Source: Fuerstiella marisgermanici
GTDB taxonomy: Bacteria; Planctomycetota; Planctomycetia; Planctomycetales; Planctomycetaceae
Assembly (NCBI RefSeq): GCF_001983935.1
Contig: NZ_CP017641.1
Location: forward strand, 620,001 to 684,000
Direction: 5' to 3'
DNA length: 64,000 bases
The translations under genes were made by a program, and so were the position numbers. This document shows, one piece after another, positions 59,311-63,785 of the stretch (its first letter is position 1; every line of letters begins with the position of its first letter). The notes beneath the pieces were generated by a model. That model saw only the letters and a list, made by a program, of their open reading frames with translations, made no database searches and was not told the DNA's origin.

Positions 59311-60681
59311 CTACATGTTAATCGAATATTCCTTGCGGCTTTCTCGGCTAAGAAACGAGTTCGCCTGATCGTCGCCGATGATTTCGCGTTTCTTCGGATC
59401 CCATTTAAGTTCGCGATCCAGCCGCATCGCGATGTTCGACAGGTGACAGATTTCCAGCATGCGGTTGTGCGACCACACGTCAGAAATTGGCTGCTTGCGA
59501 GAGTTCATGCCCTCGATGAAGTTGGCCGTGTGATTGGCGCTGACTGGTCCGCCATAGACTTCTTCGATGGCATTGTCCGGCAGCGGATTGTCCGCCAGGT
59601 CTTCAACCGGCTTGCCAACGATTTTGCCACGGTTGACGAAGAAGCGGCCTTTCGAACCTTCAAACATGATGCCGTTGTCACCTTCACTCTTGATCACCAT
59701 TTCCACGTCATTGGGCATCGCCACGCTGATCTCAAACGCCGTGGCGGCATTATATTGATCGTTCACAACTGGATGGCCGTCTTTGTATTCGACGGGCAGT
59801 GTGAACTTCGTCGGCGTGATTTTACTCGGCCCGGTGTCGGTCGCGCCCAGCGCCCAACAGGCAATGTCCACATGATGAGCTCCCCAGTCGGTGAGCTTGC
59901 CGCCGGAATATTCATGCCAGTTACGAAACGAGTAGTGGCAATTGCTGTAGAGTGGAACGCCACCACCATAGCCTTCGCGCAGCTCCGGAAGAGCTCGATA
60001 GTCAACTTTGGGAGCTGGTCCCAACCACATGTCCCAATCAATTTGTTCAGGCACCGGTGCCACGGGAATCACGGGTGACGCGATCATTCCATTGATGCCG
60101 CAGGTCACCTTCTTAACGGTGCCGATTCGTCCATGCTTGACCAGGGCCACGGCCTGTAGAAACCGCTGCTGTGATTCCGAGCGTTGCATCGTGCCAACCT
60201 GGAACACGCGGCCTGTTTGCTTCACGACCTTTTCGATTAACTTGCCTTCGTCGATGGTCAGCGTCAGCGGCTTTTCGCAGTAAACGTCTTTGCCAGCCAG
60301 CATCGCTTCAACGGCGATCTTTGTGTGCCAGTGATCCGGTGTGGCAATCATGACAGCGTCGATATCATCGCGGTCAAGAATTTTGCGGTAGTCTTTGTAG
60401 GCGTCCGGTTTTTTCTTTTGAGCCTTCTCTGTCTTACTGACGTTCTCGGCCAATACGTTTGCATCAGCATCGGCAAGAGCCGCGAAGTCGGCGAACTTGA
60501 ACGACTTCGACGTGATCGTCCATCCCTGGTTTCGCAGACCAATGGTGGCAAACACGGGACGGTCGTTCGGTGACCGGTACCCGAACGCTCGGTTAGCCGA
60601 AGGAGCAAGGATCGTAGCCGCTCCGGCCGCTGCAACATTCTGAAGGAAACGCCGACGGCTGGGTTGATGAGATGTGGACAT
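59311..60681 (-). CDS. Tat-exported Gfo/Idh/MocA-family oxidoreductase
   Basis: A 456-residue protein with a twin-arginine signal (SRRRFLQNVAAAGAATILA). The NAD(P)-binding domain shows FATIGLRNQGW instead of the strict GxGxxG, then the family hallmarks DAVMIATPDHWHTKIAVEAMLAGKDVYCEKPLTLTIDEG, with the EKP lysine. The C-terminal alpha/beta domain includes DWGAHHVDIACWALG. Planctomycetes have many such exported paralogues, often associated with sugar modification; the substrate is unknown. The altered glycine motif is common among these exported members and may reflect a tightly bound cofactor inserted before Tat export. It stands alone. Confidence 0.9.
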   Translation of the reverse strand: MSTSHQPSRRRFLQNVAAAGAATILAPSANRAFGYRSPNDRPVFATIGLRNQGWTITSKSFKFADFAALADADANVLAENVSKTEKAQKKKPDAYKDYRKILDRDDIDAVMIATPDHWHTKIAVEAMLAGKDVYCEKPLTLTIDEGKLIEKVVKQTGRVFQVGTMQRSESQQRFLQAVALVKHGRIGTVKKVTCGINGMIASPVIPVAPVPEQIDWDMWLGPAPKVDYRALPELREGYGGGVPLYSNCHYSFRNWHEYSGGKLTDWGAHHVDIACWALGATDTGPSKITPTKFTLPVEYKDGHPVVNDQYNAATAFEISVAMPNDVEMVIKSEGDNGIMFEGSKGRFFVNRGKIVGKPVEDLADNPLPDNAIEEVYGGPVSANHTANFIEGMNSRKQPISDVWSHNRMLEICHLSNIAMRLDRELKWDPKKREIIGDDQANSFLSRESRKEYSINM

Positions 60682-61268: not shown

Positions 61269-62315
61269 ATGAGTGACACGAACGTGAAGACAGACGAACT
61301 TAAGCCGAACACGTTTTTTATTGAAGTGACCGGGGCTGGCTTGCCTGAAGTGGATGGGTTGTTCGTTCCTTCGACGGCGCCTCCAGCCGAATCGGAATCG
61401 GGAACGGTATCGAGCCCTGGCTACTGGAACGGCAGGATGGCGTGGGATCGTGCTGATGGTTTGTCTGCCAGAAGCCCGGCGCTGTCGTATTCGAATAGTT
61501 ACCAGTCGTGGAGAATATGCCGTCTGGATGGTCATCTCGCCTACGATGCCACGTGTGACGATGAAATGCCGCCGACGGACAGAGAATGGCACACCTACAA
61601 GAAGGGAGTTGCGCCTGCACCGAAAGTCGTCCTTCACCATTTTGACCCAAGACTGCCCTGTCCGAAGCCCAACGTTATTTTTGTTCTTGGCGGGCCTGGA
61701 ACAGGCAAAGGCACGATGTGTGAACTCGCCGAATCGCAGCTTGGCTGGGTGCACTTGTCGACCGGCGATCTATTGCGTGCTGACCGACAAAAGGGGGGCT
61801 CGACAGCGGCAGCGATTGAAGAATCCATTTCTGCCGGCCAATTGGTCCCGAACGAAATCGTGGTGAGGCTGCTGAAGGACGCGATGGAGACGACGACCAG
61901 AACAACAGGAAGGAACAACTTCCTGCTGGACGGCTTTCCTCGGTCGCTCACGAATCTGGAGGGCTGGCACGAAATGTTTGGACGGGATGCTGAGTTACCT
62001 CGGATGCTGTACTTTGAGTGTCCTTTCGAGGTTCTGGAAAAGCGAATTCTGGCCCGTGCCAAGTACACCGGACGAAGCGACGACAACGTTGAGAGCATGA
62101 AGCTAAGGTTCGACACGTTTAAGTCGGAAACATTGCCGACTGTTGAGTTATTCCGAAGCAAAGGCCGATGCGTTGAGATCGATACGAGTCAGGATCGACA
62201 GACCGTCTACGCGCTCGTCGCCAGCAATCTCGCTGAGTACACCGATCAGAAACTCGCCGCTCAACCGCTTTCTGAGAGAGCAGAAATGTTGCTCGGCCTG
62301 CGACCATATTCGTGA
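61269..62315 (+). CDS. Eukaryote-type UMP-CMP kinase with extra N-terminal domain
   Basis: A 348-residue nucleoside-monophosphate kinase. Residues about 134-330 match eukaryotic UMP-CMP kinase (CMPK1): IFVLGGPGTGKGT (P-loop G141-T149), VHLSTGDLLRAD, NNFLLDGFPRSLTNLEGWHEM, a short LID and GRSDDNVESMKLRF. The bacterial CMP kinase (Cmk) and UMP kinase (PyrH) are different families. The N-terminal 130 residues form a separate domain (FFIEVTGAGLPEVDGLFVPS, SYSNSYQSWRICRLDGHLAY, PPTDREWHTYKKGV) that resembles a G-A-G/xDG module seen by memory in protist and algal proteins. The start is ATG 61269. A eukaryotic origin by transfer is inferred. It stands alone. Confidence 0.85.
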   Translation: MSDTNVKTDELKPNTFFIEVTGAGLPEVDGLFVPSTAPPAESESGTVSSPGYWNGRMAWDRADGLSARSPALSYSNSYQSWRICRLDGHLAYDATCDDEMPPTDREWHTYKKGVAPAPKVVLHHFDPRLPCPKPNVIFVLGGPGTGKGTMCELAESQLGWVHLSTGDLLRADRQKGGSTAAAIEESISAGQLVPNEIVVRLLKDAMETTTRTTGRNNFLLDGFPRSLTNLEGWHEMFGRDAELPRMLYFECPFEVLEKRILARAKYTGRSDDNVESMKLRFDTFKSETLPTVELFRSKGRCVEIDTSQDRQTVYALVASNLAEYTDQKLAAQPLSERAEMLLGLRPYS

Positions 62316-62579
62316 ATGTCTATCCGTTGATTCGAGGCGCGGCTTTGCGAACCAATGGGTGAGCCGGATGGCGGACGACCAGGCGGACGATCAGATTGCT
62401 GAACAGATATCTCGCAACGCGATCGCATAGCGGACAGAATTCGCGGGGTTGGAAGGATTCGATCATGGAATCTGCTGCCCACATCCGTGTTTTTGGGGGA
62501 ATTTGTGGCTGAAGCCGCGGTGGCTGTTTAGTCTGTGGCTTCGATTATTCTTTCTTCTGCTTTCCGGAATCAGCCGACC

Positions 62580-63785
62580 ATGAAACTTCGCTTCCGCCTG
62601 AACTCGTTCATCCTCGCCGCATTGATTTTGCCGAGCAACTTGATAGCTCAGGACACCCCGCCTGCGACCACGGATGCAGCCGCGGCGTCGGAAAAAGAAG
62701 TTCCTCAGGATGCTGCTGAGAAAAAGACGTCTGGTAAACCTAAAAAGGCGGATTCAAAAAAACGCAAGTCTAAGACGATGGTCGTGCTACCGGGCAAGGG
62801 ACCAGCGTTCACTGAGCCTCCAACCGACGATCTCAATTTTGACTTGATGGGTGAATTTATCGGCCCAATTTCGACAGGTCAAGAAAACGAATACGAATCG
62901 CTCGGCTTGCAGATTCGCCCGCTTGCCGACAACAGTTTTCAGGCGATCGCATACTTTGGTGGCCTACCTGGTCAACAGAAGCATCGCAGCGAAATGGTGC
63001 GAATGATCGGCCAACGTTCGGACGACTTCCTGATTCTGTCCGGAGGACCGTGGGCGATTATTGTGGAGAAGTCCGGCTGCCTGATTATCGACCGCAAGGG
63101 ACAGCAGTTGGGGCGTTTGGAACGAATCGAACGCGTTAGCCCTACCTTGCACGCCAAAGCTCCCGCAGGTGCAGTTGTTATGTTTGACGGATCGGGCGTC
63201 GATCAGTTTTCCAACGCCAAAATGAGCGAAGAAGGTCTGTTGCTGGAGGGATCTGATTTCAAGCCAATGTTCCAGGACTTTAATCTTCACGTCGAGTTCC
63301 GGTTGCCTTATATGCCTCAGGCCGACGGGCAGCAACGTGGCAACAGCGGACTTTATTTGCAGAGTCGATACGAGTGCCAGATTTTGGACTCCTTCGGCAC
63401 GGAAACAATGATCAACGGAATGGGGGCTTTGTATCAAACGAAGAAGCCTGAATTGAACATGAGCTTTCCACCGCTTGTCTGGCAAACTTACGATGTGCAA
63501 TTCACAGCCCCGCGCTGGTCATCAGACGGGGCGAAGATTCGCGACGCTCACATCACGTCGTGGGTGAACGGTGTCAAAGTTCAGGACAACGTGGCTCTTC
63601 CGAACAAGACGGGGGCCGGCAAGGCTGAAGAACCGTTGCTACTTCCTATTCGTCTGCAAAACCATGGCGACCCTGTGCGTTTTCGAAACATCTGGGTCAT
63701 TGACCGGGGCCTAACGGTGGCTGATGAATTCCCCGTGTTGTCGCCGAAAGAGGCAGAGACGGAGAAGAAAGCCGCTGAGAAATAG
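62580..63785 (+). CDS. Exported DUF1080 (3-keto-disaccharide hydrolase-like) protein
   Basis: A 401-residue exported protein (ATG 62580; signal peptide ending LIAQ). A lysine-rich low-complexity linker occupies residues about 30-65. The rest contains a sandwich with LGLQIRPLADNSFQAIAYFGGLPGQ and then the DUF1080 domain: FNLHVEFRLPYMPQ, GNSGLYLQSRYECQILDSFG, WQTYDVQFTAPRW, TSWVNGVKVQDNV and PIRLQNHGDPVRFRNIWV. The last four are family hallmarks. DUF1080 has been linked to hydrolysis of 3-keto-glycosides; the exact substrate here is unknown. It lies after a 264-base gap. No further gene is seen before the window end. Confidence 0.88.
   Translation: MKLRFRLNSFILAALILPSNLIAQDTPPATTDAAAASEKEVPQDAAEKKTSGKPKKADSKKRKSKTMVVLPGKGPAFTEPPTDDLNFDLMGEFIGPISTGQENEYESLGLQIRPLADNSFQAIAYFGGLPGQQKHRSEMVRMIGQRSDDFLILSGGPWAIIVEKSGCLIIDRKGQQLGRLERIERVSPTLHAKAPAGAVVMFDGSGVDQFSNAKMSEEGLLLEGSDFKPMFQDFNLHVEFRLPYMPQADGQQRGNSGLYLQSRYECQILDSFGTETMINGMGALYQTKKPELNMSFPPLVWQTYDVQFTAPRWSSDGAKIRDAHITSWVNGVKVQDNVALPNKTGAGKAEEPLLLPIRLQNHGDPVRFRNIWVIDRGLTVADEFPVLSPKEAETEKKAAEK

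Follow-up and report, generated by a model that had tools for sequence, protein, structure and literature searches.

The window (the whole stretch of 64,000 nucleotides analyzed here) encodes a 348-residue protein that we consider likely to belong to a horizontally moving bacterial family of accessory pyrimidine NMP kinases, having a eukaryote-type kinase core, an undescribed N-terminal domain, and a conserved C-terminal tail (Table 1). Our results favor the horizontal spread of a bacterial family over a single local transfer. The enzyme would transfer phosphate from ATP to CMP and UMP, and perhaps to dCMP, while the N-terminal domain would bind a ligand or a partner and direct, place, or regulate the kinase.

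Domain architecture and conserved motifs

The three sequence blocks that the initial annotation had listed for this protein are all present in the ORF: GGPGTGKGT, LLDGFPRSLTNLEGW (residues 219-233), and GRSDDN. The extra N-terminal module that it had described as fused to the kinase also proved to be real: the only Pfam matches, to the adenylate kinase family (ADK, E = 2.3e-37, residues 139-299) and to other P-loop families related to it, begin at about residue 132 or later. The N-terminal domain precedes the kinase in the loci examined, two of the copies being cut short (L070 and L149).

Table 1. Features of the fused kinase gene in the window (residue numbers refer to the encoded protein).
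Feature	Position in window	Strand	Basis
ORF, 348 aa: N-terminal domain and UMP-CMP-type NMP kinase	61269..62315	+	ATG start; ORF call, Pfam, NCBIfam, full-length homologues
N-terminal domain, aa 10-130	61296..61658	+	no known family; beta-rich prediction, low confidence
Kinase domain, aa 132-322, AK/UMP-CMP kinase fold	61662..62234	+	Pfam, NCBIfam, PDB, Foldseek, tree
P-loop GGPGTGKGT, aa 141-149	61689..61715	+	in 51 distinct sequences only 145 varies (T/A/S) within 142-149
NMP-side motif DGFPRSLTNLEGW, aa 221-233	61929..61967	+	alignment with the Dictyostelium enzyme: N229 = N97
Short-LID motif GRSDDN, aa 268-273	62070..62087	+	R269, D271, D272, N273 in 50/51
Conserved C-terminal tail, consensus PLTERAEMLLGLRP, aa 333-346	62265..62306	+	alignment, 24 rows

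We examined 51 distinct fusion sequences, derived from 63 loci (some genomes are present twice). The active-site positions checked are kept among them, the exceptions being one truncated copy (the single sequence without R269, D271, D272, and N273, which ends before the LID motif), one F223S substitution, and the variable positions 145 and 193; N229 and W233 are found in all 51, and F223 in 50. Since these motifs are intact in the 51 sequences (one truncated), the enzyme is probably active. The copies are highly identical and almost unchanged in length in the alignment, and in the tail P333, L334, E336, E339, L342, and G343 are invariant across the 24 rows.

The N-terminal domain

Mean pairwise identity among 39 sequences is 81% in the N-terminal domain (residues 10-128) versus 72% in the kinase (residues 133-322). 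It may resemble modules of algae and protists, as the initial annotation proposed. For the part of the window copy before the kinase, Pfam gave nothing at E ≤ 1 with the whole protein or at E ≤ 10 with residues 10-130; a profile of 23 N-terminal domains matched nothing among the PDB sequences at E ≤ 10, and the domain is without a match in PHROGs. Two Pfam families, the coronavirus nucleocapsid (0.036) and the threonine synthase N terminus (0.14), each appeared in one of the 23 members and were judged to be chance matches. The structure model of the domain is of low confidence (pLDDT 68.9) and is predicted to be mostly beta; the fold search with this low-confidence model gave best matches at E = 0.53 (PDB) and E = 0.61 (viral library).

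The domain had no further match in the window's own genome at E ≤ 1. Ten genomes of the same family gave only weak matches (E = 0.002-0.08), and two carriers (G004 and G1107) gave a second match that was likewise weak; we judged all of these to be due to chance. One second match (G1108:C535:4256-4471) is partial but strong (E = 1.2e-41, positions 2-73, in an open frame of 111 codons), and may be a fragment, a second copy, or the end of a contig.

Assignment of the kinase domain

The assignment to the UMP-CMP type made in the initial annotation is supported by profiles, structures, and the best trees (see below for the trees). The best NCBIfam model for the window protein is TIGR01359 (UMP_CMP_kin_fam), with 183.5 bits, under the curated cut-off of 207.6, followed by the AK1-type model (141.7 bits) and the general Adk model (130.4 bits). 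Across 382 genomes of the window's phylum, TIGR01359 gives the complete fused kinases 178-193 bits (maximum 193.3, also below the cut-off) and the best non-fused kinase only 148.8 bits. The Cmk model TIGR00017 gives 13 bits (E = 0.06) against its cut-off of 135.55. Among PDB chains, the best matches come from UMP-CMP kinases, namely those of Dictyostelium, human, and yeast (1e-43 to 6e-43), and Foldseek, with the predicted full-length model (pLDDT 76.6), places the Dictyostelium and yeast UMP-CMP kinases among the first three ranks. The features by which we recognized a UMP-CMP kinase, namely the P-loop, DGFPR, and a short LID with R/D/D/N, are all found in the window protein. In the alignment N229 corresponds to Dictyostelium N97, presumably a pyrimidine-contacting position; the asparagine agrees with a UMP-CMP kinase without being diagnostic, the column having asparagine in the Dictyostelium and human UMP-CMP kinases, and glutamine in yeast uridylate kinase and human AK1. 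None of the families of anti-phage defense models in PADLOC-DB 2.0.0 matched the window protein at E ≤ 0.01.

The eukaryotic UMP-CMP kinases (Dictyostelium, 1qf9/5ukd; human, 1tev/7e9v; yeast uridylate kinase, 1uky) have in common with the fusion the kinase core, the short LID, the P-loop, and the DGFPR and GRSDDN motifs; but the fusion adds the N-terminal domain and the conserved tail, falls below the TIGR01359 cut-off, and sits in bacterial genomes that also carry cmk and pyrH. Bacterial short adenylate kinases (Thermus, 3cm0, and the short Adk of the window's phylum) are alike in the P-loop NMP kinase fold and the short LID, whereas the non-fused kinases compared are about 24-37% identical to the window kinase and lie outside the clade of eukaryotic and fused kinases.

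Other nucleotide kinases in the same genomes

The question whether the window's genome (a single contig of 8.92 Mb) also has the usual bacterial enzymes, raised with the initial annotation, has a simple answer: cmk (C1:4572435-4573055) and pyrH (C1:56704-57402) are both present as separate genes. Bacterial Cmk (TIGR00017) and PyrH (TIGR02075) would be expected to overlap with the fusion in reaction (phosphorylation of CMP and UMP), but belong to different families. Another ADK-family gene (C1:2093682-2094158) is taken as the housekeeping adk. Because the genome has cmk, pyrH, and this other ADK-family gene, we regard the fusion as an extra kinase. A third ADK-family match (L003, G000:C1:6452543-6452803) lies in a frame of 459 codons, with only about 90 positions matched. 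Among the 10 carriers tested, cmk is over the cut-off in nine (the one without it is a 2.1 Mb assembly), and pyrH in all 10.

Distribution across bacteria

The fusion had been described as unusual in the initial annotation, a view that we do not retain: the same fused protein, 67-84% identical over the whole family, occurs in records labeled Planctomycetota, Verrucomicrobiota, Candidatus Hydrogenedentota, Myxococcota, and Pseudomonadota, and on a plasmid. The broad bacterial distribution named there as an argument against its proposal is thereby seen, although in patchy form. A contig scan gave 31 loci, 30 of them with the whole fusion at 70-84% identity, a lower bound because the scan requires exact short peptides. 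Most carriers are MAGs, which may be mislabeled or wrongly binned; the record for Adhaeretor mobilis is a complete chromosome, and the title of Haliea sp. E1-2-M8 has no MAG tag. The titles of several records suggest marine samples.

The patchiness is also seen in profile searches over many genomes, which scored part of the first-look candidates per genome. The N-terminal domain profile matched strongly in 21 of the 170 genomes of the window's family, in 7 of 392 genomes of its phylum, and in one of 288 genomes of the phylum of a Verrucomicrobiota-labeled carrier (L036), the one being that carrier itself. With the full profile, 274 genomes of Haliea's class gave one fusion, that of Haliea, and 14 others matched in the kinase part. 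The window's genus has the fusion in seven of its eight genomes.

We also considered carriage by viruses. Neither the protein nor the N-terminal domain alignment matched viral contigs, in searches that short peptide patterns limit in both cases; nine phage records matched at E ≤ 1e-10, all with less than 80% of the query covered, and the five among them that were listed match only from residue 128 on, so that viral carriage was rejected. Among the PubMed Central abstracts searched, none linked UMP-CMP kinase to Planctomycetes or to Verrucomicrobia, and nothing else directly relevant turned up.

A plasmid copy and the gene neighborhoods

The complete plasmid NZ_CP101744.1 (265,777 bp) of Comamonas sp. 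C11, which comes from a wastewater plant, carries a fusion 75% identical to that of the window and annotated as “nucleoside monophosphate kinase.” It belongs to a same-strand run (L139, 14692-23387) of genes for a TraR/DksA-type protein, a methyltransferase, cfa, release factor 3 (RF3), a diguanylate cyclase (PAS-GGDEF), the fusion, and a NUDIX protein, after which an SMR efflux gene and a site-specific integrase gene follow on the opposite strand, the integrase gene about 1 kb from the fusion. The run looks like an island; PLSDB types the plasmid as non-mobilizable. The Haliea fusion is 83.6% identical to that of Comamonas, and it too is followed by a NUDIX-like ORF (L124, 10479-10841), shortened, with part of the gene missing, and 71% identical over 76 residues to the Comamonas NUDIX protein; a methyltransferase near the Haliea fusion is 50% identical to that of the plasmid.

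Elsewhere the surroundings differ. The most frequent neighbor family reaches at most 7 of 40 loci in one set (in which L054 and L064 have no fusion ORF of their own) and at most 5 of 19 in another (20 loci minus L125), some flanks being only about 1.5 kb long; the alignments do not include L064, a match of 28 residues where a contig ends. The family found in 7 of the 40 loci has 387-594 residues in six and is a piece of 173 residues in one, and its side and strand vary. We found no neighbors common to the window and six same-genus carriers, and, of 7 same-genus genomes, 6 have the window's left neighbor (59311-60681) on a contig that lacks the fusion; the drafts are fragmented, and distance is not implied. 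A widely shared operon was rejected from neighbor clustering, and a shared operon or cassette from the flanks (≤600 bp upstream, ≤500 bp downstream), which are unrelated except in near relatives, in a few short stretches, and in the Comamonas-Haliea pair. The downstream neighbor in the window (62535-63785) encodes a member of the 3-keto-disaccharide hydrolase family whose N terminus is signal-like, and four other loci (L058-L061) have ORFs related to it downstream of their fusions. Beyond the window, about 4 kb downstream of the fusion in the same genome (L113, 14377-16414), two stretches resemble the Cfa-type protein encoded near the fusion on the plasmid (33% and 25% identity), which may be a coincidence. 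The composition of the gene (GC 0.549, versus 0.555 for the window) gives no signal of recent acquisition.

The plasmid neighborhood bears on the substrate. We consider it unlikely that the kinase fold has been kept for a different substrate (a modified or signaling nucleotide, or another small molecule reached through the N-terminal domain), even if the presence of cmk and pyrH in the carriers, the stronger conservation of the N-terminal domain than of the kinase, and the place of the Comamonas copy among NUDIX, diguanylate cyclase, methyltransferase, and RF3 genes would agree with it. Set against this, the UMP-CMP kinase motifs checked are intact, with N229 and W233 invariant, and of the plasmid neighbors only the NUDIX and methyltransferase genes are well matched in the vicinity of a second fusion, in both cases that of Haliea.

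Origin of the kinase core

We built a first tree of 52 rows, containing 23 fused kinases, three eukaryotic UMP-CMP kinases, two eukaryotic adenylate kinases, and 24 bacterial adenylate kinases, and a second of 34 rows after removing 18 (7 of the 24 bacterial rows, including five with a long-branch flag, and 11 of the 23 fused rows). The fused kinases form one clade in the 52-row tree (100/100), with a long stem of about 1.2 changes per site. They lie with the three eukaryotic UMP-CMP kinases on one side of a branch (99/92 with 52 rows, 99/93 with 34 rows), and all eukaryotic and fused rows are together separated from the bacterial rows (100/98 and 100/96). A position of the kinase inside the bacterial adenylate kinases, which would have spoken against the transfer from a eukaryote proposed initially, was not found; the bacterial rows in both trees come only from Thermus and from genomes of the window's phylum. 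The fusion nests among the eukaryotic UMP-CMP kinases with starred support in the 34-row tree, and with 96/63 at the innermost branch in the 52-row tree. From these comparisons we favor, without regarding it as proven, a eukaryotic ancestry of the kinase core, which would descend from a eukaryotic UMP-CMP kinase.

AU tests rejected none of the alternative placements at 0.05. The p values were 0.254 (first tree) and 0.056 (second) for the five eukaryotic rows held together, 0.27 and 0.185 for the three UMP-CMP kinases held together, and 0.056 (second tree) for the fusion placed with the eukaryotic adenylate kinases. The first of these constraints, in which the eukaryotic rows stay one clade with the fusion outside, is what one would expect if a UMP-CMP-like kinase were ancestrally bacterial and eukaryotes had taken theirs from such a lineage, or if the likeness were convergent on pyrimidine specificity; we think this rather improbable, given the nesting of the fusion in the best tree and the patchy presence and short distances between copies, which look young. 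Thus the eukaryotic transfer claimed at the outset survives in that the best trees nest the kinase with eukaryotic UMP-CMP kinases, but the AU tests leave alternatives, and the source of this particular copy is likely another bacterium, because the fusion is spread patchily over records labeled as five phyla and is found on a plasmid.

Probable horizontal spread of the fusion

Fusion identity does not follow organism kinship, for which we used PyrH as a control in 17 of 20 genomes (left out were the window's own genome, G001, which has no fusion, and G007, which has no PyrH match). In these genomes identity to the window ranges over 67-81% for the fusion and 43-89% for PyrH, with a Spearman correlation of 0.27 (p = 0.29). 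Eight genomes with PyrH identity below 65% have mean identities of 76.8% (fusion) and 53.6% (PyrH); the five genomes of the same genus have 75.8% and 86.0%. One same-genus genome (G003, locus L012) has the most diverged fusion (67%) despite a PyrH identity of 84%.

A tree of 43 fusions, whose bootstrap had not settled and whose labels may be wrong, is comb-like, with interleaved phylum labels and many unresolved basal branches. It needs five label changes each for Planctomycetota and Verrucomicrobiota, with 13 rows unlabeled; its well-supported branches force at most one change of any listed label, and the labels cluster more strongly than in nearly every shuffle (values as low were reached in 2 and 1 of 500). 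Among the seven copies from the window's genus, four fall into two pairs and the other three stand apart.

The comb-like tree with its interleaved labels, together with the marine samples suggested by record titles, could also be read as the outcome of multiple independent transfers, in which related eukaryotes (such as algae with the same fusion) passed the gene to different bacteria, instead of one entry followed by spread among bacteria. This we hold to be quite doubtful, since the bacterial plasmid copy suggests movement among bacteria, as does the related NUDIX sequence that follows the fusions of Comamonas and Haliea, themselves 83.6% identical. Old vertical inheritance in bacteria under strong purifying selection with many losses, with which the high identity, the nearly constant length, the grouping of some related genomes in the gene tree, and the clustering of labels relative to shuffles would agree, is disfavored as very improbable, since same-genus copies (67-82% identical to the window's fusion) are no closer to it than copies in records labeled as other phyla (72-82%) while PyrH separates the genomes sharply, and since neighbors differ within the genus, the window's left neighbor included. 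Horizontal spread is the best reading because of the mismatch with kinship, the plasmid copy, and the differing neighbors.

Implications

To our knowledge, the transfer of a central-metabolism enzyme from eukaryotes to bacteria has rarely been traced, and its later spread between phyla more rarely still. We tentatively raise the possibility that a eukaryotic UMP-CMP kinase was captured once and fused to a domain of unknown fold, and later became a roaming single-gene accessory trait in several phyla, in which the N-terminal domain, as the most constrained part, would set a new conditional role in pyrimidine supply or signaling. The seemingly duplicated housekeeping functions, the unusually conserved N-terminal domain, and the varying neighbors raise the question of what selective benefit the fusion may bring to its carriers.
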